Assembly (NCBI GenBank): GCA_019633425.1
Contig: WSUB01000062.1
Location: forward strand, 70,907-134,906
Direction of reading: 5' to 3'
Length of the DNA: 64,000 nucleotides
Origin: Tulasnella sp. 424
Taxonomy: Eukaryota > Basidiomycota > Agaricomycetes > Cantharellales > Tulasnellaceae
Shown: positions 10,714 to 57,457 of the stretch, in pieces
How positions within the stretch are numbered: the first letter of the stretch is position 1
Layout of the letters: every line of letters begins with the position of its first letter
The notes under the pieces: generated by a model
What the model was told of the DNA's origin: nothing
The model's database searches: none
The model's input: only the letters and a program-made list of their open reading frames with translations
Position numbers and translations under genes: made by a program

Positions 10714-13487
10714 TCAATCGCAACCTTCCACCTCGGATTCCGACTCTGAATCTCCCTTGGCAACACCCTCCCACTCTGACTCCTCTTCGACTTCCTCGTC
10801 GTCCAAGGCGACTCCATGCTCGGAAGCTGATGAAGAGGGTGACTTCCGCCATTGTTCTTGCACGACGTTGCCGCCATCGCCGATCAACTCTTCATCCGAC
10901 ACGTGTTCGTCAACTCTGGCTCCTGATTCGTTTAGGGGTGGTGGTTGCGGGAGGTTGGCGGTATAATTCTTCTCTTCACTTGAATCGTCTTCTTCATCCT
11001 CTTCGTCTCCCTCCCTATCACCAACGGCTCTTGTATTAAGGGATTCCAGTTCGTCGGAATCCTCCATTTCCTCGTCACTTTCCGCTTCTTCCGCACTATC
11101 AAAAACAGATTCGTCCTCTCCAGTGACCTTGGGTATGGCTCCGATTGGCATTGCGCTGCTGGCAGGTGCAGGGGAGGGCGATGAGTGGTTTTCAACATCG
11201 TCATCTTCCGACTCGGCTGGGTCGGCTTGTTGCTCTGGCTCCTCTTCGTCGGAATCTTCTTCATATTCCTTTTCGATCCTTCCAACCCGTACAACACCAC
11301 CCAATCCGACGGGTAATGTGTTTTTCGCAGGAGTGGGAGCGGCATCGTCGCCTATTACGTCTGACTCTTCATCCGAGTCTGACTCCGGAGGACCTTTCGC
11401 GAGGGAGCTTTGATTTAGAGGTGGTCCAAGTCTATCCTCCCGATCATCCATGCCTTGATCAGATTCACTCTCCGAATCCTCTCCGTCGAGGTTTTCATCT
11501 ACTGCGTCGTCATCATCTGAAGTTTCGTCGACTGATTCAGATTCATCAGAGCCAGATTGGACGTCTCCGGGGAACAAGGGGTCCGAGTGGGTTTCAGGAT
11601 CAGTTTCAAGAGGCTTCGGCACACGTTCATAATCGTCTTCGTCATCTTCCATTTCGTCGGATCCTGCGTCGGCTTCGAGTTCATCCACCTCCTCGTCGGC
11701 GGGAAGGATGCCTTGGGCTGTTTGTTCTTCCTCCGCTCCCTCGTCAGCGCTCTCTTCGCTCTCTTCTAGAGGGACGTGCACAGCCCATCCACTGACGGTT
11801 TTTGAGGGAGATTCATCGGTGGTTGAAGGCTGTCGAACTTGAACTTCATTCGCGGCGTATGAAACCTCGGGGGTCGCTCGATCGTCTTGGTATTGTTTTC
11901 CCCCATCATCCCCCGTAGAACTAGTCTCCGATGATGCAGGAGGGGATTCGGCAATGCTCATACGATCTTCTGGCTCCTCTTCTTCTGGTGCGGGCGACTT
12001 AGACACCCTTCCGTTTTCCGTGTTGGCATTTTTGGGACTCTCGCTTTGCTGTCTACTCTCCGGGGTACTGTCGCTTCCTGAACCTAATTCATGGTCTGGC
12101 TCAACTTCGCTTTTGTTTAAATTTCGTCTTGTAAGCTTTAGAAGGAGCTGTTGAGCGTCTTTCTTTGCCTGCAATCGCTGGTGAACTGGGGTAAAGACCC
12201 GGAGTAAGTCAGCTTAAACTCGAATCAAAACGAACCTTATTGGAAACTCACTTTGTTGTGCATTGTCCAGGAAAGCGAGGTCGTCGTTCAAGTATGACAA
12301 GTAGTTGCGAGGAGGAGCTGAATCAGCGGATTTGGATGCAGATCCAGACCCAGAAGGCCCATCCGAAGCCGACGTGTTGTGGACTAGCGGAGCGAACGGT
12401 TAATGAATTGTGGCTCTTCCCATCAAAAAACCGTACATCGCTGGGTCTTCCTGGGCCCAAAAATCTTTTCGAGCCTCGCTTGTGTTCGTTCGATCACTCT
12501 AAGGAGCTCATCCCTGTCAGCAAAGGGGCAGCGCTCTGCTGATAATACAGGCTCTGACTTACGTTGAGTCTACGACTCCGTTTTCGGCCAATATCTCCAT
12601 CGCGAGTTCCCAATTCATTGGAGGTATTCTCAATTGCGTGCTTGGAGCCGTACTAGGCCGATACTGATGTAATAGCCCAAATGTTTGATCCAACAACGCT
12701 TTACATCGAACAGCCAGAGCGTTGACAGAAGCGTCGGGTAGGAAAGGATGTGATCCAGAAGGGTCGGTAAAGCCTGGGAGAAGTTGAACATCGGGAGGTA
12801 AAGGGTATGGATTCGGTTGAGTCGAGATGTGGCGTTGTGCGATGGACCGAACTTCGTCGATGAGCGAGAACTTTGGGGTTTGGATGTCGCTTGGTTGAAG
12901 AGGCCAGGCGGATTTGAGCTGCAATTGATGCAGCGGAAAGGAGTTTCCGGTTAGCTATCATGTTGCACAAGCCGAGAGAGGCATTCCTACGTTCGGTGGT
13001 TTTGCTCCGCTGGGTTTGATGTTGGTTTTAGGCCCCTCGCTCCGTTCCTGGAGGGAGTGATCCGGTGCGCCGAACGGCTCCATGACAAGCGAGCGGTGAA
13101 AATTGACGATATGGGAGCCCACGTCCTGTACATGGTCCGTTTCTAATGTTCGCAGGAGTTGGGAATAACCAGAAAGTTCTCTGCGTGCGCCGACTCCAAG
13201 ACGCCGGATCTTCCGCTTCCGAGCATTTTCTTCCTCTCTAGCACATGAAAAAAGCGGAAATTTAACGATATAGTAGCCTCAGGAAAGTATTAAAGTCCGT
13301 ACAACTCGCTCTCGCCTAAACTTTCATAGACGTCGAGGGGACCAACGGCGGTATCCGAGTGCTTCCGCTTCTTAGAACGTCTCCTGCCGTGGAGACCTTC
13401 CTCTTCATGTTCATCAGAATAATAATCTGGGCTTTGTTTGTCGTGGTCGAATTGGCGCAGGTCAATCTCTTCAGCGTCCGACGACAT
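10714..13487 (-). CDS. Acidic nuclear-type protein, unrecognised
   Basis: Six exons read on the minus strand (introns 13302-13238, 12990-12919, 12562-12514, 12436-12384, 12251-12186) give 822 residues. The start is MSSDAEEIDLRQF at 13487. Residues 1-145 are basic and include a KKRK cluster (RRRSKKRKHSD) resembling a nuclear localisation signal. Residues about 145-265 form the only compact, possibly folded part, with a W-P-L-Q-P...DEV motif. The C-terminal 450 residues are extremely rich in Asp, Glu and Ser. The third intron has two in-frame acceptors 15 nt apart (ending at 12514 or 12499). An Rrn9-like RNA polymerase I factor is a weak possibility from the W-P-L...DEV pattern, but I do not recognise the family with confidence. 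The convergent neighbour is the DUF1308 gene; the two stops are 270 bases apart. Confidence 0.7.
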
Positions 13488-13911
13488 ACAAAGGGGGAGG
13501 GGAGTGAGACTCGGAGAGTAAAAAAGCTGTCGCGGCGGAGACCTCGGCGACTTCACATCACATCACATCTTCACTCTTCTCCCGCCGCGCAACCACGCCA
13601 GGTCCTCGACTCTGCATCCCGTTATATCCAATTCAGAGAACTATGGTTTAAGCCTTGCAATGGCACTTCCAGGTGATGACTTGTGAATATTTTTTGATTT
13701 TCCCCTCCGCATCTGGTACAGTCTACATGACACGCCACGAATGACAAGTCTGTGCAAGTAATTAGATACCGTCCATCAGATCATATTGGCTAGATTAAAT
13801 TTGGCATATATGTACTCTAGCTCAGCTAAAATAGTGCTTAAAGTGACCGATTCATGGAGTACATGGTAGCGGTTACCCTCCTATTATCAATCTATGCATA
13901 GATTCGATCCA
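13488..13911. other. Intergenic, no gene seen
   Basis: Contains the 5' flank of the acidic-protein gene and the 3' flank of the F-box-like gene. No supported ORF, RNA gene or repeat was seen. Confidence 0.5.
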
Positions 13912-15313
13912 CTACACCATAAAAAACAAATCGCTCTGCAGCCCCGCAATGCAATCCTGATTTGGGAACTTCCCAGAGCTACCTCGGGTAGCCTTGAGGA
14001 AGATATATACGCGAATTGGTGCCTGTCCCACCCGGGGCACGAAGTCTTTGAAAAAGTCCGGCCATTGGGAGTAGTTGTGGTCTCCAACATCAATTTCTAT
14101 CAAGGTCTTCCTTGTCTGGAGTTTATACGTTGATGGACCCAACTCTAGACAGAATGATGATTCTGTCATGGAATGAAGCACCGCCCATATCTTGGATCGG
14201 ATATAACCTTCAAGTTTGCTAGTGCATGCTGATACATTCCAATCCGAGGAAAACATCTGTATGCTAGCTGATGGTGAAAGTTGGAAGCAGTCAAGAGTAC
14301 TGCCCATGGCATGATTGGTGCCGCCGATATGGAGAAGCTGGAGGTTGGGCATGGGTAGGGGCTCTACTTGAGATTTGTTGTCTGGGCCTTCGTCCATGAG
14401 TCGGTCCACCCGGAGGATGCGAAGCCTCGGCGCACTCAAGACAATCGACTTGAGGGCCCCGAGTCTCACTTCCTCCAGCGGACATTCAATAGTTAGTTCT
14501 TCGAGCCGGGCGTACAGTGTCGGCATGGTGGGGAGTGCGCTGCCAATGAGGTGGATCCAACGTGGGGAAGGAATTCCGAGTGCAGAAGAGGTTTCATTGA
14601 ATGGAATATCTTCCGCTCCCCCTACTAGCAAGTTTTGGACCGTTGGGAGATGCGTCAAAAGTGGGGCCAATACCTGATTTCCAAGTGTCAGGTCGATCAT
14701 CAAACTCCCGATGCGACTCGACAATGGCAGAACCATGTCCATGAAATGACGCAGGCTTTCTTCTTCATCGCGTTTTGCTCTAATACAAAGCCTGGTCGAC
14801 TCTTTGGCTCGCGTGAGAGCGACCTTGATCATGTTTTTCGGCATTGTGGTGCTGATGAGGGACCAAAAGGGTGCGTAAGAGACGATGATGTCGTGCCACC
14901 TCCTATTCACCCTCTGGATGGAGTAGAGATCGCGGTAATAGAGCCAAAGGTCACGATAAGAGGCGTCCCCGGTGATGTCTGTGACCCAGTCGAAGTTGAC
15001 GGCGAGCTTGAGGATGTCTAGAAGGATTTCGTCCGGGAATTCCACGCGCAATAGGCGGTTCCGGTGTTGGAAAAGACGACCAAGGATAACATCCAGTGCT
15101 TTACTTGCTTTGCCTCCTCGCCGGCTTTCGCATTGTTGCGTTATGAAACTGTGACGTGGGGTTGGTGAGTCATGGCAGGAGTCACACTGGTGACTGGGAG
15201 AGGATCCGGTATCTCACTCACCGGTCGAGATCATTGAAACCGACACCGAATGCCTGAGCAGCAGTCTCATCTGCCAGGCGCTCTAACTCCAAGTGATTGA
15301 ATACCTCCTTCAT
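13912..15313 (-). CDS. F-box-like protein
   Basis: Two exons, 15313-15222 and 15148-13912 (intron of 73 nt), give 442 residues. The first exon supplies an ATG and a short helical leader (MKEVFNHLELERLADE), making the in-frame ATG at 15051 internal. An F-box-like helix follows at about residues 63-110, with FPDEILLDILKLAV and later VNRRWHDIIVSYAPFWS, the usual agaricomycete F-box layout of leader helix, F-box and a long diverged LRR-like region. F-box proteins recruit substrates to SCF ubiquitin ligases; the substrate of this one cannot be inferred. The remaining residues carry weak leucine-rich periodicity (PNLQLLHIGG, APRLRILRVDRL). The family is large and fast-evolving in agaricomycetes. 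Confidence 0.75.
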
Positions 15314-30259: not shown

Positions 30260-33089
30260 TATAGTTCTAGAGCGAGTACTGGGAGTAAGCATGCTTCGTT
30301 TAGCTCCGTGAAGGTTTCATCGGGAGCTAAGCCCTTCCAGTTGGCACTCAGGGAAACGGAATTTCTAGTTGAACTTGATCATCCAAACATCGTCAAGCTC
30401 AACGGCTTCGTTGAAGACCTATCTAAGGATATAATCTGGCTGGTATTCCCTTGGGCGGGCAATGGCAATTTGAAGGACTTTGTCGCGTCCCGAGACTGGG
30501 AAATTCCAGAGCGGATCTCGTTGGTAAGATCAAAGGACTCCTGGTTGAACTGACTCTGAGAACCTTTACGCTAGATCAAGGACGTGGCAGAAGGGTTGGA
30601 ATATCTCCATAACCAAGAACCACCCATACGCCACGGTGACCTCAAGTCGGTAAGTTCCAGACGTGCGACGATAGTACGCATGAGAAGCTTAGTCTTGAAC
30701 AATACAGTTCAATGTATTAGTAAACTCGGAGCGCGTCGCAGTGATTACCGACTTTGGGTCTGCTCGTCGCCTCACCGAACATGATCTCAACAGACAAACG
30801 GGGCCAGTCCAAAACCAACAGCGGCCGGTCCAAGCAACGTTGTCCACCCTCAGCAAAACCATAACCCTTACCGGGAATATATACACCCTTCGCTGGGCCG
30901 CCCCAGAGCTGCTAAATGACGACCAAATAAGCCTCTGGAGTGATATGTGGGCATTGGGCTGGATAACGTATGAGGTAAACCTCTAGATTTGAATTCGATG
31001 TGTATCCGAGGCTCACAAACTCACTCCGAAAAAGGTTCTGACCAACTCCATCCCGTTTCAAGATGTCCCGAAGGACGCCGTCGTTATCGAACGCGTCATC
31101 AAAGGAGACCTTCCATCCCTTACTGAGCATGCTCGCGTGTCGTTGTTTCAGAACCTTTGCTCCCTTATGACCATGTGTTGGAACAGCGATCCTTTTGAAA
31201 GACCGACAGCTAAAGACTATGTACGTGCCATCAGGGATATGGTGAGTGATGCTGGTTTATCGTTCGTGAAACGCAACTGACCCATTGTGATATAGCCGAT
31301 GGTCGTTCCAGACACGAGGCACGGGGCATATTCCACGTTTTCCAGCAAATTATCCTCCGAAGTTCTGATACGGCGGGGAGGGAAGGGGCGGGAGTCCGGT
31401 GACTCTGCAATGGCGTTTGCTTGCTTCACCGAGGCTCATCGGATTTACACCAAGGTCGGTGATAGGACAGGCGAAGCCAACGCTCTGGACTGTCTCGCCC
31501 AAGTGCATCTGGATCGAGAAGAGTACAGCGAGGCCACCGCGCACTACTCCGAAGCACTGGAAATCCATACTGGACTCGGCACCATGGAAGGCAGAGCTTC
31601 CGCTCTGAAGGGTCTAGCTCAAGTGCATAAGCTTCAAAAGCAGTACGGCGAGGCCATTGTGCACTACTCCGAGGCACTTAAAATCTACAATGGCATCGAC
31701 TACATGGAAGGCAGAGCCTCCGCTCTGTGGGGTCTCGCTGAGGTGTATCAGCTTCGAAACGAGTACAAGAAGGCCATCGACATCGACGACAGGCGAGGCA
31801 GAGCCGACGCTCTGAGCGGTCTCGCCGAGGTGCGTCAGTTTCAAAAGCAGTATGGCGAGGCCATTGCACACTACTCCAAGGCACTCAAAATCTACACTGG
31901 CATCGGCATCACGGAAGGCAGAGCCTCCGCCCTGTGGGGTCTCGCTGAGGTGTATCGGCTTCGAAACGAGTACAAGAAGGCCATCGACGTCGATGACAGG
32001 CGGAGCAGAGCCTCCGCTCTATGGGGTCTCGCCGAGGTGCGTCAGCTTCAAAAGCAGTACGGCGAGGCCATTGCGCACTACTTCAAGGCACTCAAAATCT
32101 ATACTGCCATCGGCAATATGGAAGGCAGAGCTTCCGCTCTGTGGGGTCTCGCTGAGGTGTATCGGCTTCGAAACGAGTACAAGAAGGCCATCGACATCGA
32201 CGACAGGCGAGGCAGAGCCGACGCTCTGAGGGGTCTCGCCGAGGTGCGCCAGCTTCAATCCAAGTACAGCGAGGCCCTTGCGCACTACTCCGAGGCACTG
32301 AAAATCCATACTGGCATCGGCAACATGGAAGGCAGAGCTTCCGCTTTGAAGGGTCTCGCTCAAGTTCATCAGCTTCAAAAGCAGTATGGCGAGGCCATCG
32401 CGCACTACTCCGAGGCACTCAAAATCCACACTGATATCGGCAACATGGAAGGCAGAGCCTCCGCTCTGAAGGGTCTCGCTCAAGTGCATCAACTTCAAAA
32501 GCAGTGCGGCGAGGCCATTACGCACTACTCTGAGGCACTCAGAATCTATACTGGCATCGGCAACACGGAAGGCAGAGCCTCCACTCTGTGGGGTCTCGCT
32601 GAGGTGTATCAGCTTCGAAACGAGTACAAGAAGGCCATCGACATCGATGACAGGCGAAGCAGAGCCTCCGCTCTGTGGGGTCTCGCCGAGGTTCGTCGGC
32701 TTCAATCCAGGTACAGCGAGGCCATCGCGCACTACTCCGAGGCCCTGCAAATCCGTACCGACCTCGGCGACAGAAGAGACCGAGCTCCCGCTCTGTCAGG
32801 TCTCGCTCTAGTGCATAAGCTTCTAAAGGAGTACAGAGAGGCCATCGCGCTTTATTCCGAGGTCCTGCAAATCTGTACCGACATCGATGACAAGGAAGGC
32901 CGAGCCGAGACTCTGTCGGATCTCGCCGACGTTCATAGCCACCAGAACCACCACGATCTTGCAAGATCTCTGTATGAGCAAGCCGCTGAATTATTTGAAC
33001 AATCTGGAAACGGTGATGCGGCAGCTTCTGCGTTGAGGAAAGCGGCCCGTGCCCACTTCAACTCGATATGTCTTGTTGAAGCAGCATGA
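30260..33089 (+). CDS. Protein kinase with C-terminal TPR array (start unresolved)
   Basis: Introns at 30524-30574, 30650-30707, 30975-31034 and 31242-31295 keep one frame to a stop at 33089. Kinase motifs: alpha-C region RETEFLVELDHPNIVKLNGF, catalytic loop HGDLKSFNVLVN (HGD in place of HRD), DFG in ITDFGSAR, APE in WAAPELL, and the CWNSDPFERPT helix. The glycine loop is not recognisable; the beta-3 lysine is probably in SSVKVSS. After a short linker come 14 TPR units (from 31470). Kinase-TPR proteins of this layout are multi-copy in agaricomycetes, and their roles are not known. No ATG opens the frame after 30260, and a TAA at 30257 blocks the frame upstream. The gene therefore needs an upstream exon I could not find, or it is a 5'-broken copy. 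Confidence 0.7.
31470..33017 (+). repeat. 14-unit TPR-coding repeat with a 207-nt higher-order period
   Basis: Ten units of 40 codons (type GRASALKGLAQVHQLQKQYG...) and four shorter units of 29 codons (type GRASALWGLAEVYRLRNEYK...AIDIDDRR). A short unit followed by a long unit forms a 69-codon composite, seen at units 3-4, 5-6, 7-8 and 11-12. Neighbouring copies are nearly identical in DNA, showing recent expansion or conversion. Long antisense ORFs over this stretch are by-products of the repeat. Confidence 0.88.
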
Positions 33090-45622: not shown

Positions 45623-48131
45623 TCAAACGACTTCCTCCCAATGGGATCTTGCCCAATCGTAGAAGAACTCCGAGGCCATCATTCTAGACGTCGAGGCAAA
45701 CATCTGGAAAAAATTCTCGAATCTTGGCGGACTACACAGATACCGCACCATGGAGGTCGCGGCGGGAAGTAACTTGTCCGTTCCGTAGCTTGTGCAGTGC
45801 ACTAGGCCCTCGGGCTGTTTCGATATGAGCCTGACAATCGCATAAAAGTTAAGGAATAAGGTCCTCCTCACCCAATCGAACTTTTTGAGAGATATCCTTG
45901 TCAACCAATAAGCAGAAGCTGCAATGACGCTGGGAGGGTATTCGAGAAGTTGAGGGTCGAAGCATTGCATCAGCACCAAGTATTTCGCAAGCCGGAAGCT
46001 CTTATGACGGGGAAATTACTGTTTAGTACAAGTAAAGTTAAGACTATTGTTCACTTACTAAGACGTCAGAGCCATCGGCAATTGAAATCCTTCTCAAGAA
46101 GGCGAGCGGATTTGGACATTCCAGATGCCAGCCCAAAGACTGACACAGTGCCAATTCGCCGGAAAGAAACATTTCCGCGGTATCCTCATCATTCGAGGAG
46201 TATTTCCACCAGTTAACCTGACGAGGGGTGCCCTCTTGGCTCTTGGCCGCGAGGGAAGCGCAGACGAGCCCTGTAAATGGAAACCTGGCCACGCGAACTG
46301 TCCGTACGGAGAGAAGCCGGTCGAAGAGGTTGACTGTCATCCAAAATGTCTCAGAAAGCAATCCCAATTCATGGAGCAGGCTGAGCAACTGGTCCACTAC
46401 GATGCCTCGCGCCAGCCACGCCTGCTCGGGAAGTTCGTCCATGAAGCGGTGACGGGGCATTCGGGCCGCCTATAATATATAGAGTCGCAGTACGTGAATC
46501 AGCAAGAGGAATATCTAGAATCGAAGGGCACCGACCTCTAGGTCTTGAAGGTACTGATAAATATCTTCAGCATATTCGCTGGACGATATGCGATCCTGGC
46601 TTGAATCTCCGTGATCGTTACGTCTGCCTTCGGTCAGGGACATCTCATTCTTTGAATCGCTTGAGTGGTGAGGTTGAGACCTGAAGGGGGTAGCGGGAAA
46701 CGGACTACGGAGCTGGGGGGCCACCCTTTGGGACTTCGAAACCGGTGTCCGGTCTTGCAGCCACGCCCTAGAGGACATCGTATGGACGGAGTCAGAACTG
46801 AAAGGGTATCGGCAGGGGACGTGCATACATTCTTTGTCTCTTTAAAGGCCTCGAGTCTGGAAACGCAACGTCGTTTGCCTTCCTTTTCGGCGTGCAAACA
46901 GTACTTAAAAGAGAAAGATTTGGGACCAGCGCCCCTCCATTAGCTCCATTCCTGGAGCCGTGGTTGAGAAGGACTCATTAAACACAGGTACAAGCAGACT
47001 CACACCCCAGACGTGGAAAGTTTGCTTGAGCTTTCGATGACCGATTGACGAGTCTTCGTGGGTGTCTCTGCAGTGGAATCCGAAAGATTGCGAAGGACGT
47101 CCAACATAGACGGGCGTTCCGCAGGGTCGTCCGACCAACACCGAGCAGCTTCCGCCCAAATTCGCAAGTACGATGTACCGTCAGATGCTGAGGGAGGTTC
47201 CATTGGTGGGCGAACTCCAGCAAAGATGACCCCGGCAATGATACTGCCCAAGCCGGTGTGATCGAAGTACGGTTCCTTGCCGCTCAAAACCTTCGAAGCG
47301 AGATGATAAATCAAGATCGTTTCACAGCTACAGAGCAGCAAAGTGAAAGTTACCTCGTATATAGTAATACCAAACGCATATACGTCGGTTTCAAAGCTCT
47401 TGGAGGCGCCATCTCGTAAGACTTCGGGGCTCTGCCAAGGTACACTCCCGGCCCCTTTAAGAGCGCTGAAAGTTCGAACGTCAACGTGTCTTGCGAGACC
47501 GAAATCGCAGAGTCGGGCACGATGATCCGAAGAAATGAGGACGTTGTTGCCTTTGACGTCTCCATGGATGATCCCAGGTTCGAACCGATGAAGATAGGCT
47601 AAACCCTCGGCAACCTCGATAACCTAGACAGATTGATGCAAAAGGTGAGTAAAACGTATCAAAGTGTTTCAGAGGCTAGGAGACTCAGAGAGACTTACCA
47701 AGCGACCCCTATCCGCATCGGGAAAGCTCGCCAGGTAATTCGGAAGCGAACCATATTCAGCAAAAGGTGACACAAGGTAGATAGAGTCTTCAACTGTGTA
47801 GGTGCCCAAGAAATTCAAGATACGAGGGTGGCTCAGCTTGACCCACACAGCCGCCTCCGTTTCTATTTGCTGACAGGTGGAGGCGTCAATTTGCTAAACG
47901 TTGGATGAAACAACGACCAAAGTCGGGATCTCTGGGGTATATGAAAAGGCGTACCTTCATCAAAGTTTCATTATAACTCCCTCGAGGGCGTTTCAAGGCC
48001 ACTTTGCCGGCGATCGGGTGGACGCCGGTGAACAAGTCACAGAATGCGCCAGAAGTGTTAGCGGGTACGGTGCTGTCGATCGAGATAGGGCCTTGTAGAG
48101 CGAAATCCGGTGGCTGAGCAGAGTCTGTCAT
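45623..48131 (-). CDS. Protein kinase-B-type cyclin fusion protein, copy 1
   Basis: Nine exons (introns 47954-47870, 47698-47624, 47353-47291, 47003-46952, 46828-46768, 46535-46470, 46058-46001, 45871-45815) sum to 663 residues in one frame. Residues 1-300: a tyrosine-kinase-like kinase with beta-3 Lys47 (GKVALKRPRG), HGD at 136-138, DFG at 156-158, SPE and CWSDDPAERPS; the glycine loop is degenerate. Exon 4 joins to exon 5 through a consensus GTGAGT donor into a linker with TPKRKAND. Exons 6-8 are a cyclin: YAEDIYQYLQDLE, FWMTVNLFDRLLSVR, CPNPLAFLRRIS, YPPSVIAASAYWLTR. The cyclin hydrophobic-patch motif reads RGIVVDQ where B cyclins have R..LVDW. Kinase and cyclin could be separate genes, but the linker has no good separate start. 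No PSTAIRE helix: the kinase is not a CDK. The C-terminus is shortened by a 4-nt difference from copy 2. Confidence 0.7.
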
Positions 48132-49638: not shown

Positions 49639-51023
49639 TTAACACTCCTGAGGTAGGGCAAGACCTTCCATCACTGCACCTGTTCCATTTGAGGCGCTTA
49701 CTCTAAGGAGCTGAGTGGCGTCGGATGGCATCAGAGAGATATGCCATATATCGGTCATTTGTGGTCCCGAACATGTTGCGTCTATAGAGGTACCGCCACC
49801 ATTCTGGTTTATTCCGCAAACGTACGCATGGCTGCAACTATATTCAGAGCATCACTCAAGAATACTAGGCGAAGGCTACGAACCTGCCTGGTCGTGTGAT
49901 ATCCGATAACCATCGCGCCCCAAGCGTGTCATAGCCGGGGACTTGTACCTGAACCATGCTCAGTCCGCCAAAACCGAACGAAGGATGAATCAAAACTTAC
50001 ATCGGGAATGTGCAGTTGGTAAGGGCCGCTTAAAGAAGGATTGTACTCAACTTCGAGTGCCTCGGCTAGAGAAGCCGTGGCTTTTAGGCCGTATTCGGCA
50101 GAATTCTTGGACACGTAGGATATCGTGGAGTCATTCCTCTTTAACAGGATCCGGCCCCTTTTCTTAGTTTTCTGGGGAGCTGCAGCAGGCGTTGGCATTC
50201 TGTTGAAGGGTAGCAGAGTGTTAATCGGTGGGTATTCCTGCTCCGAAAAAGCCATACTTCAACACTGGTCCAGATTGGTCTTCGCGAGGATATTGGGCCA
50301 GTATCNNNNNNNNNNNNNNNNNNNNNNNNNNNNNNNNNNNNNNNNNNNNNNNNNNNNNNNNNNNNNNNNNNNNNNNNNNNNNNNNNNNNNNNNNNNNNNN
50401 NNNNGTGGGTATTCCTGCTCCGAAAAAGCCATACTTCAACACTGGTCCAGATTGGTCTTCGCGAGGATATTGGGCCAGTATCGCGACCTGCAGTAACTTC
50501 CAATTTTCTTGGATGCTTGAGTCAAGTGACACATGGAATCTCAGAGCATTTCCGACAAAGGAGTCCGAGATGAAGGCAATAATCCAGTCGTTATCTTTCT
50601 GCTTTCCTGCGTCCCGCGCTCGTTGACGAACTGAAAAAACAAACTGTTCGGCTTCTTCTCCGTTCTTCCCGCAGAATATGGGATGGTATCGTGTAAACAT
50701 TGCTTGTCGAAGCAACTCCCAGCTTCTCCGAGTCTCTTCATCCAGCCAACTCCACCACCTAAGTGCATCGTGGACGAAGCAGCTTGCTGCAAAGTCGGCG
50801 ATCCATTCGTCATCTTGCAGCTTTCCCTGACTGTAAGCATGCTTGACCACTGCAGCAATGAACTCTTCGCATTCCTTTGCATCCGTGCCACGGAACTGGG
50901 GTAGTCCGGTCCCTGTTTAGAGAAGACGCAATCTTGCATGACCAAAAGGGCATTTTCAAGTGGGGTGCGACGGTGCGTACCATCGATTGTTATTACGTGT
51001 ACTTCGGGTTCCATACTTGCCAT
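49639..51023 (-). CDS. Gag-like tandem-domain protein, copy A (contains gap)
   Basis: The start is MASMEPEVHVITIDG at 51023 (or 51014), with a first intron just after it, then LPQFRGTDAKECEEFIAAVV. Two gag-like helical units follow: DEWIADFAASCFVHDALRWW...LLRQAMFTRY and DWIIAFISDSFVGNALRFHV...LLQVAILAQYPRED. These resemble capsid-like domains of LTR-retroelement Gag, domesticated and multi-copy in agaricomycetes. After a further intron comes a small basic domain (KKRGRILLKRNDSTISYVSK). The last exon ends ALPQEC at 49639. The copy is interrupted by 99 N at 50306-50404 with a 78-nt duplication on both sides, almost certainly an assembly fault, because copy B is continuous there. Function unknown. 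Confidence 0.6.
50228..50482. other. Assembly gap with identical 78-nt flanks
   Basis: Bases 50228-50305 and 50405-50482 are identical and enclose exactly 99 N (50306-50404). The paralogous segment at 53,696-53,773 has the 78 bases once. The simplest reading is two contig ends that overlap but were scaffolded with a default-size gap. The ORFs drawn across it are artefacts. Confidence 0.92.
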
Positions 51024-52544: not shown

Positions 52545-54970
52545 AGTACACCCTTGAATAACCGACCCTTCAGTCGTTACTATGACCCAGTCAACACTAG
52601 TGGTTGCCGGCGATGGGAGGAAGAATAACAATGGGCGGATCGGCTGCATACCATATGTCAACGGTCTCAGGCCGTTAATCTCACTCAATGACCGGGCATC
52701 AAAAGCTCAGCCTTGCCGCACATCGGTTACATCGCCTCGACCCATCCTCGTCGTAATCCCTCAGCTATTTGGTGCATGACTCCTCTCTCTCCCGCGCATT
52801 TCGATTTTTGGGGTGAGAGGCCACAACAAACAGAAACGGCGTTTCAAGTTTCACCACAAAAAGATACAAAGCAACGGTCCTGAAAACTCTTTCTAGAGAT
52901 TCATATGGCCATTCGAAGTCTTTAGCTCAGACTGGTTCGAAGAACAGGTCCTACAAGGGTGACAAGGCCCGTTAGTGTGTCTCCTCAGGGTGCCTGTAGT
53001 AGCTTACCATATCAACTTCCCCGCTGTAAGTGTTTGTTACAGCTCTGAAGAAAATCCAGGCACCAGAATTGGTGCGAGGAATAAGAGAGCCTAGCGGAAT
53101 TAATATTTGTTAGCACTCCTGAGGGAGGGCAAGACCCCCCATCACTGCACCTGTTCCATTTGAGGCGCTCACTCGAAGGAGTTGAGTGGTGTCGGATGGC
53201 GTCGGAGATATATGCCATATATCGGTCATTTGTGGTCCCGAATATGTAGAGGCACCGCCACCATTCTGGTTTGTTCCGCAAATGACCGCATGGCTGCAAC
53301 TATACTCAGAACACCACTCAAGAATACTAGGCGAAGGCTACGGACCCATCCGATTGTGTGGTATTTGATGAGTGCCACCGCGCCCCAAGCGTGTCATAGC
53401 CGGGGACTTGTCCCTGAATCATGCTCAGTCCTCCAAAACCGAACGAAGGATGGATCAAAACTTACATCTGGGATGTGTATTTGGTAAGGACCGCTTAAAG
53501 AAGGATTGTACTCAACTTCGAGTGCCTGGGCTAGAGAAGTCGTGACTTTTAGGCCACAGCTTTCAGTATTCTTGGACACGTAGGATATCGTGGAGTCGTT
53601 CTTCTTTAACAGTCGGATCCGGCCCCGCTTCTTAGTTTTCTGGGGAGCCGCAGCAGGCGTTGGCATTCTGTTGAAGGGTAGCAGAGCGTTAATCAGTGGG
53701 TATTCCTGCTCCGAAAAAGCCATACTTCAACACTGGTCCAGATTGGTCTTCGCGAGGATATTGGGCCAGTATCGCGACCTGCAGTAACTTCCAATTTTCT
53801 TGGATGCTTGAGTCAAGTGACACATGGAATCTCAGAGCATCTCCGACAAAGGAGTCCGAGATGAAGGCGATAATCCAGTCGTTATCTTTCTGCTTTCCTG
53901 CGTCCCGCGCTCGTTGACGAACTGAAAAAACAAACTGTTCGGCTTCTTCTCCGTTCTTCCCGCAGAATATGGGATGGTATCGTGTAAGCATTGCTTGTCG
54001 AAGCAATTTCCAGCTTCCTTGAGTCTCTTCATCCAGCCAACTCCACCACCCAAGTGCATCGTCGACGAAACAGCTTGCTGCAAAGTCGGCGATCCATTCG
54101 TCATCTCTCAGCTTTCCCTGACTGTAAGCATGCTTGACCACTGCAGCAATGAACTCTTTGCATTCTTTTGCATCCGTGCCACGGAACTGGGGTAGTCCGG
54201 TCCCTGTTTAGAGAATACGCAATCTTGCATTAACAAAAGGGCAGTTTCAAATGGAGTGCGACGGTGCGTACCATCCATTGTTGTTACGTGTACTTCGGAT
54301 TCCATACTTGCCGTAAAACGCTTCTCCTTGTAGAGTATCCAGCCCTCGGCGGTGGTGTAGGGGAGGAGGAGGCACGTTCGGCACGTTGTCACGGAGAAGA
54401 CGGGGATTAGCCTCCTGCCTCGTCCCGCACGCCGGTCTTGACCTTAGGATGTGGACTGAATACACTTATTCGGCGTACGCCACTGTCCATTTACCTGTAG
54501 AGATTGAATTCAAAACCCTGTTTCTTTGGCACCTAAATCAAATGTCTCAAATAGAAACCTAGCCGGAAGCATTTTTGTGACCAAGGCTTTTATCAACACC
54601 CCAGTCACTGAGAACAGCGGCCGATAAACACCAAGTTGGAACATGGTTCATATCATCGCCACACAGACGCTCATATATGGAGTCACAACAACTCGCTTCA
54701 ATACGTATGATCTTCTTTCCCTCTCTGTTATTCTATTATCGCCCTCGGAGCGTCAGCGCTTGACCGCATGCGCGGGAGCGTCGTAGGTTGCTCGTGACCC
54801 CCTTTGTCCCTCTTGAGCAAGCCAGGTTTCAAAGGGATACGAATCTCTCTAAGACTCGTTGGTCCTTCTCATCAAAAAGGGTAGCTCTACCTCCAAACCC
54901 GCGGTCAATCGACTTCCTTCCTCCCAATACGCTCTTGCCCAATCGTGGAAAAATAATGAAGCTCTCAGCC
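52545..54970. repeat. Segmental duplication, copy B
   Basis: Counterpart of 49,070-51,690, continuous and without gap. It runs into the intact 3' end of kinase-cyclin copy 2, so this copy shows the ancestral junction between the gag-like gene and the cyclin. Confidence 0.85.
53110..54305 (-). CDS. Gag-like tandem-domain protein, copy B
   Basis: First exon 54305-54272 (MESEVHVTTMDG), intron 54271-54204, exon 54203-53726, intron 53725-53668, exon 53667-53466, intron 53465-53414; phases agree to that point. The last part, to a stop at 53110, needs one more intron, probably 76 nt beginning GTAGCC. The content is as in copy A: LPQFRGTDAKECKEFIAAVV, two gag-like units with WWSWLDEETQGSWKLL and FHVSLDSSIQENWKLL, then a basic small domain (KKRGRIRLLKKNDSTISYVS) and a C-terminal block with GPQMTDIWHISP. 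No protease, reverse transcriptase or zinc knuckle is attached, so it looks like a host gene derived from a retroelement Gag. The role is unknown. Nearby copies differ by scattered substitutions, several of them coding. Confidence 0.65.
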
Positions 54971-57457
54971 GACTTTTTGAGGCCTGCCTTTTGAAAAAGT
55001 TCTCAAATCTCGGCGGGCTACGGAGATACCTCACAATAGAAGTTGCGGGGGGAGATAGCTGGTCGGTTCTATAGCCAGTGCATCGCACCAGTCTTGACGG
55101 CTATTTGAGTTATGAACATCCTGAGCTCAGTCGGGAGTGCGAAACAAAATTCACTCACCCAATCAAACTTTTGAATACATATCCGGGTCAGCCAATAAGC
55201 GGAACTTGCAATTAGACCCGGAGAATACTCGACAAGATGGGGGTCGAAGCATTGGGTCAAAACGAGATATTTGGCGAGGCGTGAACACTGCAAGGACAGG
55301 AAGATCAGCTAATATACATCGCCTACTGTGGTGGGGTATCTACCAAGGAGTTGTCATCATCGCTAGCTGCAATTCTTTTCAGAAAATCAAGCGGATTGGG
55401 ACACTCTAGCCGCCACTCCAAAGCCTTGGCCACTAACAATTCGCCTGCGAGAATGGCGTTCGCGTCATAAGCACCGTCCGCGGAGTGTACCCAAGCACGG
55501 AGCGCGGGAGGGGTAATCTCAAGGTACTTGGACGCGAGGGAAGAACAAACAAGTGCCGCCAACTGGAACTTCATCACGTCAACTTCCCGGAGAGATATAA
55601 AGCGGTCGAAAAGATTGATCGTCATCCAAAAGGTATCCGGACGCAGTCGGAAATTTTTGTGCACAAGTTGAAGCCAGTCCACCACGGTACCTCGTGTTCT
55701 CCATGTTTGCTCCGGCTTCGTATCCAGATAGCGGTGCGGAGGCATACGGGTTGTCTAAAGCAAATGCAGCTGCATCATGAACGACAACACAAATGTCGTA
55801 TCTGGGAACAACAAAACGGACCTCGAGATCTTTTAAGTATTGGTAAATTTCTTCGGAATACTCAACGGACAAAAGGAGTTTGTTATCTGTCTCGTGCTGG
55901 ATGGGTCGATCGTCTATCTCAGGAGGCTCGTCGAGGGATAGGCTTTCGGGCTCAAACGATGCTTCGGGTGTACTTGAAGATGGAATATGAAGTTCCGGAA
56001 CTGCTTCTAGATCCTGCGACGTTGATGCGGTTGACTGGTCTAATAATCTGAAGGAGTTCGGCGATGCATATGTTAAGCCCGAGCAGAAGGGACGGGATCT
56101 CTGAGAGACGCACAATCTATGTCTCTTTGGGGCCCTCAGAATTGAATCATCGACATCTTCTGCCTTCCTCTTGGGTGTAGCAGCAACATTGGCACCAGTG
56201 GGAATTTGGGCGCGCGATCCTCCAGCGAGTCCAGTCCTAAGGTACAACCGCAGCCTGAGGGAAAATCGCTGATCGAGGTGGGAGGGGCAAGCTCACCGAA
56301 GGGAGATGGATGCAATGTTTTGGGACTGATTTTGGGTGGATAATTGAAGGGGTACAGTTTTCGGCTCATCGGTAGGGTTAGAAAGACTTTGAAGAACGTC
56401 GGCCATAGAAGGGCGTTCTGCCGGGTTGTCCGACCAGCACCTCGTTGCTTCGTTCCAGAATCTCAAATAAGACGTGCCATCAGGAGCAGCGGGCGGTTCC
56501 AAGGGTGGTCGCAGACCAGAAAAGAGGACGCCAGCAATGATAGCACCGATACTGGGGTAGTCGGAATAGGGTTCTTTCCCGCTCAAGATCGTCAGGACGT
56601 AATAGGAAATCAGCAAAGACTCCAGAGAAAAAATGCTTTGAAGGTCCAACATGCCTCGTATATAGTGATGCCGAACGCGTACACGTCACTTTGAAGACTT
56701 TTGGAAACACCATCCCTCAAGATCTCCGGGCTTTGCCAGGGAAGGCTTCCAGCTCCTTTCAAAGCCGTCGCGGTGCGGGCATCAACATGTCTTGCGAGTC
56801 CAAAGTCGCAGAGTCGAGCATGATGATCCGAAGCAATCAAGACGCTGTTCCCCTTGACGTCGCCGTGAACGATCCCCGGCTCGAACTGGTGGAGGTATGC
56901 CAAACCCTCGGCAATTTCGATGACCTGTGAATTACATCGGTCTCCACACCGTCAATAGGTGAAAGTAAGCGAGTAAAAAAAAGGAAGTATAGAAAGATTT
57001 GGAACAGGGGCTCGACTTACTAAGCGTCCCCTATCAGCACTGGGAAAGCTCTTCAGGTAGCTGGGGAGCGACCCGAATTCGGCAAATGGGGATACGAGAT
57101 AGATCACCGCGTCAAACGTATATAAGCCTAAGAACTTCAATATGCGCGGGTGGTTCAACTTGACCCACACCCCAGCTTCGATTTCAATTTGCTGAAATGA
57201 GCAAGTGAGCAGAGGTTCCATAAAATAGGACGAGTAGGCTCAGTCTGAATTTGAGTTTCTAATTTGAAAACACTTACCCTCATCAACGCATCGGTATAGC
57301 TAGCACCTCGGGGTCTTTTCAAAGCTACTTTACCCGCGATGGGGTGTATGCCCGTGAACAGGTCACAAAAGGCACCGGAAGTATTAACGGGTCCTGCCGT
57401 GTCGATCGTAATAGCCCCTTCAAGAGCGAATTGCGGTGGTTGGGTAGATTCCGTCAT
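54849..57457 (-). CDS. Protein kinase-B-type cyclin fusion protein, copy 2 (kinase part probably damaged)
   Basis: Exons: 57457-57278, 57191-57021, 56924-56655, about 56589-56297, 56236-55822, 55754-55344, 55287-55159, 55100-54849, which would give 706 residues. Kinase motifs: GKVALKRPRG, HGDVKGNSVLIAS, LCDFGLARHV, PWQSPEIL, CWSDNPAERPS. The linker has no Met and carries ATPKRKAEDVDD, homologous to copy 1. The cyclin is well kept: YSEEIYQYLKDLE, RGTVVDWLQLVHKNFRLRP, FWMTINLFDRFISLR, SLASKYLEITPP, CPNPLDFLKRI, SPGLIASSAYWLTR. The join between exons 3 and 4 is faulty: the donor is GC and the acceptor expected from copy 1 (AAG) reads ACG, so no intron restores the frame cleanly. The kinase may be truncated in this copy, or a non-standard site is used. 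The kinase-to-linker intron (56296-56237, 60 nt) is sound and in frame. Confidence 0.62.

Follow-up and report, generated by a model that had tools for sequence, protein, structure and literature searches.

The window, by which we mean the whole stretch of 64,000 nucleotides analysed here, lies on contig C408 of Tulasnella sp. 424 (Agaricomycetes, Cantharellales), a fungus of the kind found with orchid roots, and contains two gene models in which a kinase is followed by a cyclin, both on the minus strand. Copy 1 (48131-45623) is spliced from nine exons into 1992 nt, encoding 663 amino acids plus stop. Exon 1 (47955..48131) carries the start codon and the kinase N-lobe with VALK at residues 44-47, exon 2 (47699..47869) alpha-C and the hinge, and exon 3 (47354..47623) the motifs HGDVKGNN (136-143), CDFG (155-158) and DVYAFG (196-201). 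The C-lobe and tail of the kinase are encoded by exon 4 (47004..47290), which ends in phase 2 at intron 4 (46952..47003; GTGAGT...CAG), at 52 nt the shortest of the eight introns and placed at a junction common to the kinase subfamily. Exon 5 (46829..46951) is a linker exon of 123 nt with symmetric phases 2-2, reading TPKRKA...KRQR. The remaining exons encode further linker and the N-terminal cyclin helix (exon 6, 46536..46767), Cyclin_N (exon 7, 46059..46469) and Cyclin_C (exon 8, 45872..46000, and exon 9, 45623..45814, with the stop). The frame ends in ...WEEVV, before a C-terminal stretch found in copy 2 and in the public proteins P0001 and P0118, so that the C-terminus is shorter than in these relatives. 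Intron phases after exons 1-8 are 0,0,0,2,2,0,0,0. Seven of the eight donors start with GTA or GTG, the donor of intron 6 is a weak GTCGGT, and the acceptor of intron 8 was picked by homology to copy 2. Pfam profiles matched PK_Tyr_Ser-Thr at residues 28-275 (6.6e-38), Cyclin_N at 411-536 (3.3e-20) and Cyclin_C at 539-648 (1.3e-18), all above cut-off. In the genome as a whole (46.8 Mb, 448 contigs) there are at least 8 Cyclin_N sites, all above cut-off, 2 of them within the window. Coordinates and domains thus agree with the first-pass annotation, which had joined nine exons into one 663-residue frame with a kinase and then both cyclin folds; the kinase-to-linker intron at 47003-46952 has the GTGAGT donor that it described, and a second copy of the fusion gene, implied by its label "copy 1", lies within the window at 57457-54849.

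Copy 2 (54849..57457, minus strand) has the same layout of nine exons (57457-57278, 57191-57021, 56924-56655, 56589-56297, 56236-56114, 56047-55822, 55754-55344, 55287-55159, and 55100-54849, with the stop TAG at 54851-54849). Its linker exon is likewise 123 nt long and of phase 2-2, and the protein comes to 684 residues when intron 3 is read across by homology. This intron (56590..56654, minus strand) has a GC donor in place of GT, and the homologous acceptor is without AG. The copy 2 kinase may be impaired by these non-standard sites while the cyclin is kept.

Several other genes lie around the pair. Between the two copies there are gag-like ORFs at 50221-50850 (21.7 bits, below the cut-off of 24.1) and 53689-54141 (27.2 bits), and these suggest a retroelement in a tandem array. 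Oxygenase-like genes flank the pair at 44391-42507 and 59452-58502, with GBBH-like_N and TauD on one side and GBBH-like_N on the other; a block of oxygenase and fusion gene may have been duplicated. Other kinases of the window adjoin TPR repeats, by eye at 30353-33089 (plus strand) and by Pfam at 35544-34293 and 63334-61873 (both minus strand), and the kinases at 30.4-31.3, 35.5-35.1 and 63.3-62.9 kb gave weak or no match to the fusion kinase cassette.

Public annotations of the two copies conflict. Copy 2 is annotated as fused in P0002 (FRC05_009470, from the near-identical Tulasnella sp. 425), which by eye is the same gene with other splice choices and whose model omits part of the kinase at intron 3. 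Copy 1 is split: P0117 (Tulasnella sp. 424) is, by eye and up to splice choice, its cyclin as a separate gene, with its start in exon 6 at MSLTEG (residue 385). P0118 from Tulasnella sp. 417 is also a cyclin-only model, on a contig of 3020 bases whose upstream part is unread. No annotated protein for the kinase half of copy 1 was found among the protein matches listed, and no separate kinase model on the contig of P0118 among the 61 kinase matches listed at E 1e-30 or better, the latter absence favouring neither reading. The two cyclin-only models fit a reading in which a kinase gene ending at the TGA at 47002-47000 and an adjacent cyclin gene, with its start in exon 6, are joined only by the gene model. 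Since intron 4 combines phase 2 with a GTGAG donor, its retention stops translation at that in-frame TGA (residue 303) and leaves a kinase of 302 amino acids; exon 5, taken alone, is moreover without measurable constraint, its dN/dS between copies 1 and 2 of 0.76 (0.28-1.86; 37 codons) being indistinguishable from neutral. Set against this, the fused frame has no Met wholly within exon 5 (the first, Met 343, spans the exon end), copy 2 has a linker exon of equal length and phases, the TPKRKA motif of exon 5 recurs in copy 2 and P0001, and P0001 is one ORF across the linker exon. Because of P0001, the kept length, phases and motif of the linker exon, and the agreeing trees of the two halves described below, the two-gene reading is given low weight: we consider it highly improbable, and the kinase-cyclin fusion very probably genuine at the gene level. 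The mere openness of exon 5 was tried as evidence for the fusion and dropped, as 30% of random 123-nt stretches of the window are open in a given frame; the exon counts because of its likeness in copy 2 and P0001, not its openness.

P0001 is a single ORF of 701 amino acids on a contig of 2878 bases, with 70% identity to copy 1 over 100% of its length and the same domain order. At the eight junctions of copy 1 it shows no insertion of at least 4 amino acids; insertions of that size are confined to 4 amino acids in the variable tail at 288 and a C-terminal extension. Four proteins with the same source tag as P0001 (lgn) occur among the 61 kinase matches listed, and three of them (P0149, P0166, P0176) have intron-like stretches of 16-22 amino acids no more than two residues away from junction 116 and/or 206 of copy 1; the remaining one, P0140, is free of inserts inside the kinase. 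With intron-like inserts in three of four, the lgn gene calls appear unspliced, which argues that P0001 derives either from spliced RNA or from a gene copy without introns; we read it as a probable transcript (a cDNA contig), its sample type being presumed from the sequence. The comparison also took in five proteins from other sources: the junctions are free of inserts in P0135 and P0144 (jgi) and in P0118 (ncbi), an insert is present at 118 in P0168 (ena), and P0158 (jgi) has inserts of 5 amino acids at 58, adjoining junction 59, and of 20 at 107, off the junctions. A search for a kinase and a cyclin in one protein in other genomes, proposed in the first-pass annotation, thus yielded P0001 and no further fusion beyond this genome, the protein search reaching only relatives that share exact words with the query, and one such search missing even P0002; the arrangement was seen in copies 1 and 2 and in P0001.

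To estimate constraint, copies 1 and 2 were compared codon by codon. The dN/dS was 0.05 for the kinase domain (bootstrap 0.03-0.10; 248 codons), 0.22 for the whole cyclin (0.11-0.33; 236 codons), with 0.34 for the Cyclin_N part and 0.11 for the Cyclin_C part, and 0.51 for the linker (102 codons), all rough values since the synonymous distance is near saturation. By these estimates the kinase domain and the cyclin are both under constraint. The trees of the two halves agree in pairing copy 1 with P0001 to the exclusion of copy 2; UFBoot support is 90 in the kinase tree and 100 in the cyclin tree, where the group also contains P0118. Part of the fusion family may nonetheless be decaying, as the intron 3 sites of copy 2 and the C-terminus of copy 1 suggest. 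Together with the cyclin-free copies at C95 described below, these losses are what would be seen if the fusion were a chimeric duplicate that serves no function and is being lost. Such a fate we judge very unlikely, as both domains show constraint at a near-saturated synonymous distance and a relative has an apparent transcript (P0001).

The copy 1 kinase has the catalytic residues K47, D138 and D156 (of DFG), with E64 assigned by eye. Its catalytic loop, HGDVKGNN, is of the non-RD kind (HGD) and does not match DL(R/A)A(A/R)N, given as the tyrosine-kinase catalytic-loop motif in the accessible part of PMC3937382. In a sequence search, the best 60 of 2629 matches were headed by EGFR (two domains summed), followed by CTR1, DLK, B-Raf, TAK1 and some tyrosine kinases. 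The best 50 matches of a fold search were kinases only, led by BRAF, CTR1 and RIP2, with tyrosine kinases such as Lyn and Syk further down; being kinases throughout, these rows bear on the kinase half alone and not on the cyclin. On the strength of these matches the fusion kinase is classed as TKL-type, nearest RAF, CTR1 and RIPK. Cyclins are separate subunits of CDKs, and the covalent join, with both cyclin folds intact by profile, invites the thought of a cyclin working in cis, on the kinase joined to it, as it would on a CDK. However, no PSTAIRE-like helix, the mark of a CDK, was found in the fusion kinase; a non-RD kinase of the TKL type would probably not be activated in the manner of a CDK, and the two domains are separated by a long linker predicted with low confidence. 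Action in cis is therefore regarded as improbable.

The cyclin half is B-type by its matches: among solved structures it matches human cyclin B1 best (5.2e-29), ahead of A2, D1 and E1. Its 3' part has three introns in common with both the C301 cyclin B gene and the C357 F-box-cyclin gene of this genome, and two of them also with the cyclin B gene at C2; these kept introns indicate that the cyclin arose by duplication of DNA rather than from an RNA copy. In an unrooted tree of eight sequences the fused cyclins form one group (UFBoot 100), and a further split (UFBoot 99) separates this group plus the C357 cyclin from P0119 and both cyclin Bs. Among residues invariant in the fused cyclins, 15 are common to C357 and neither cyclin B, and 7 are common to both cyclin Bs and not C357. 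The C357 gene (about 11630-13990) combines a cyclin with an F-box-like domain (2.6e-4, 21.2 bits against a cut-off of 24.3) in one ORF of 485 amino acids, an architecture that we take to be that of animal cyclin F. Its cyclin groups with the fused cyclins and has the same introns, but C357 has an F-box-like domain where the fusion has a kinase. R441, D470, K496 and E525 are kept in all four fused cyclins; we take K496 and E525 to be the CDK-contact Lys/Glu, and R441 and D470 the cyclin-box Arg/Asp. The MRAIL patch, presumably the cyclin hydrophobic patch, is lost in the same four proteins, its Met being replaced by A or T and its Leu by V. Compared with B-type (G2/mitotic) cyclins, then, the fused cyclin is alike in its best structure match and in the introns common with the C301 and C2 genes, and differs in sitting behind a kinase, in the replaced MRAIL residues, and in copy 1 in a linker without RxxL or KEN. 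RxxL-like strings do occur in the linkers of copy 2 and P0001. This distribution lends at best weak support to the proposal in the first-pass annotation that the cyclin serves for degradation, and no evidence was found for its other proposal, interference with the CDK of another organism.

The kinase-to-linker junction proved to be common to kinase paralogs with other partners, a feature absent from the first-pass annotation. We compared 21 kinase tails from genome loci; ten of them, copies 1 and 2 among them, have at least 55% identity over the C-lobe piece and count as the closest. In 9 of these ten, and in 0 of the 11 distant tails, a GTRAG donor in phase 2 overlaps a stop codon in frame. 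Eight of these nine have the junction 40 residues from the start of an RP(S/R) motif, the distance being 38 in copy 1 and 39 in P0001, where the junction was placed by homology. Downstream of the junction the partners differ. Twice, at C408, the partner is the cyclin, and a C95 kinase paralog (P0003, about 27.2-28.4 kb) has a tyrosine-phosphatase region (PF00102) in one unverified public gene model; that phosphatase may have its own start codon. An F-box/LRR reading of the kinase C-termini at C47, C176 and C427 was made by eye only, and these are called other C-terminal regions; one of them, at C47, gave no Pfam match even at E 10.

The three kinases at C95 belong with copy 2 (UFBoot 100), and a wider group of C95 and cyclin-fused kinases stands apart from all others (UFBoot 89). 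Two of the three C95 copies have kept the linker of copy 2 (tblastn in seven loci, 4.4e-27 and 4.5e-7), with MPKRKA in a copy that would have lost the cyclin; the linker of copy 1 reached only E 0.11 against a C95 copy, no clear match by tblastn. A cyclin query had no match at 1e-4 at the C95 loci (seven loci searched). Having the copy 2 linker and no cyclin, these copies look like fusion genes that lost it. We infer that the fusion join came about by a partner swap at the phase-2 intron among kinase paralogs. The simplest reading is a single gain of the cyclin that predates the split between copies 1 and 2.

The same junction could act as a switch, retention of intron 4 giving the 302-aa kinase and splicing giving the fusion. 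The recurrence of the donor with its in-frame stop in the close tails and its absence from the distant ones would fit a switch, as would the shortness of intron 4. A phase-2 GTRAG donor makes the stop automatically, however, and the paralogs are not independent. Such a switch is compatible with the explanation that we prefer, set out below, and we hold it to be unlikely.

In all three fusions with a known linker (copy 1, copy 2 and P0001) the linker contains TPKRKA; P0118 begins after the motif. TPKRK matches the full CDK consensus and lies inside a bipartite basic motif. Structure prediction of the fusion, suggested in the first-pass annotation, gave a poor first run (mean pLDDT 42.6) and was repeated with 40 sequences. 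The kinase was then mostly confident, with most blocks above 84, and the cyclin moderate, with most blocks at about 57-85 and residues 502-541 below 50. The linker was of low confidence (residues 283-420 and 422-426 of P0001), and the prediction gave no readable interdomain arrangement.

Our preferred explanation is a true fused gene together with cyclin-mediated tethering to a CDK, and its chances as a whole seem to us evenly balanced. A TKL-type cassette, its last kinase exon ending at the phase-2 intron, would have gained a duplicated B-type-cyclin part in place of another C-terminal partner. The fusion protein would enter the nucleus via the bipartite basic motif of the linker, and the cyclin half, with its CDK-gripping residues kept, would bind the fungus's own CDK. 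The TKL kinase would thereby be placed next to the CDK or its partners, and the CDK might in turn phosphorylate the TPKRK site. What the analysis establishes is the gene structure, the homology, the conservation of both halves and the conserved residues; the partner swap, CDK binding, nuclear location, kinase activity and direction of signalling are predictions from these. For the mechanism itself, in which the cyclin tethers the kinase to a CDK in the nucleus, we put the chances slightly below even. The idea in the first-pass annotation of the cyclin as a targeting module thus gains plausibility from the CDK-contact residues and the basic motif, its functional steps being predictions.

The kept CDK-contact residues and the lost MRAIL patch in all four fused cyclins would equally suit a decoy or scaffold that sequesters a CDK, or a dimerisation part, with kinase activity secondary; so would copy 2, which may be without a working kinase and yet keeps its cyclin. 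Against this reading, constraint is stronger on the kinase domain than on the cyclin (dN/dS 0.05 against 0.22), and the catalytic residues of the kinase are kept in copy 1 and P0001. We consider a decoy rather unlikely and return to the tethered kinase as the preferred explanation.

Fusions of kinase and cyclin have a precedent. The accessible part of one report on Phytophthora infestans describes four CDKs with C-terminal Cyclin_N/Cyclin_C, the fusion being confirmed by RT-PCR, and related CDK-cyclin genes in other oomycetes, ciliates and Theileria (PMC3019232). According to the same part, these are CMGC kinases, one with PSTAIRE and all with a D-to-N change in subdomain VIb, and are perhaps inactive (PMC3019232). 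The Tulasnella genes likewise encode Cyclin_N and Cyclin_C behind a kinase in a single polypeptide, but here the kinase is TKL-type rather than CMGC, the catalytic Asp is kept (HGD) and the organism is a basidiomycete. No TKL-cyclin fusion was found in a search of the open-access literature. The first-pass annotation had taken the arrangement to be unknown; as far as these sources go, kinase-cyclin fusion as such was already known and the TKL-type version appears to be new. The kinase also resembles the Agaricomycete TKL/FslK lineage, described in the accessible parts of PMC3937382 and PMC2838846, in belonging to a large lineage-specific family without the tyrosine-kinase AARN motif, and is at most a candidate member of FslK. 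It differs in carrying an extra domain, as only 16 of 241 FslK members are stated to have extra domains in the part of PMC3937382 available.

These data show how automated annotation, by calling the cyclin a separate gene, masked the fusion in copy 1. At the phase-2 junction, the exchange of domains at an intron that would have built new kinase architectures can be traced among the living paralogs of one genome. The fusion itself fixes a cyclin to a kinase of another group, with both domains apparently kept by selection. Tentatively, and with the balance of probability somewhat against it, a non-CDK kinase may dock on a CDK by its own cyclin and have its NLS-linker phosphorylated back by that CDK, a covalent TKL-CDK bridge built by an intron-located swap in a partner-switching kinase family. 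The fusion would provide a simple test case for the use of a cyclin as a movable module that docks on CDKs.
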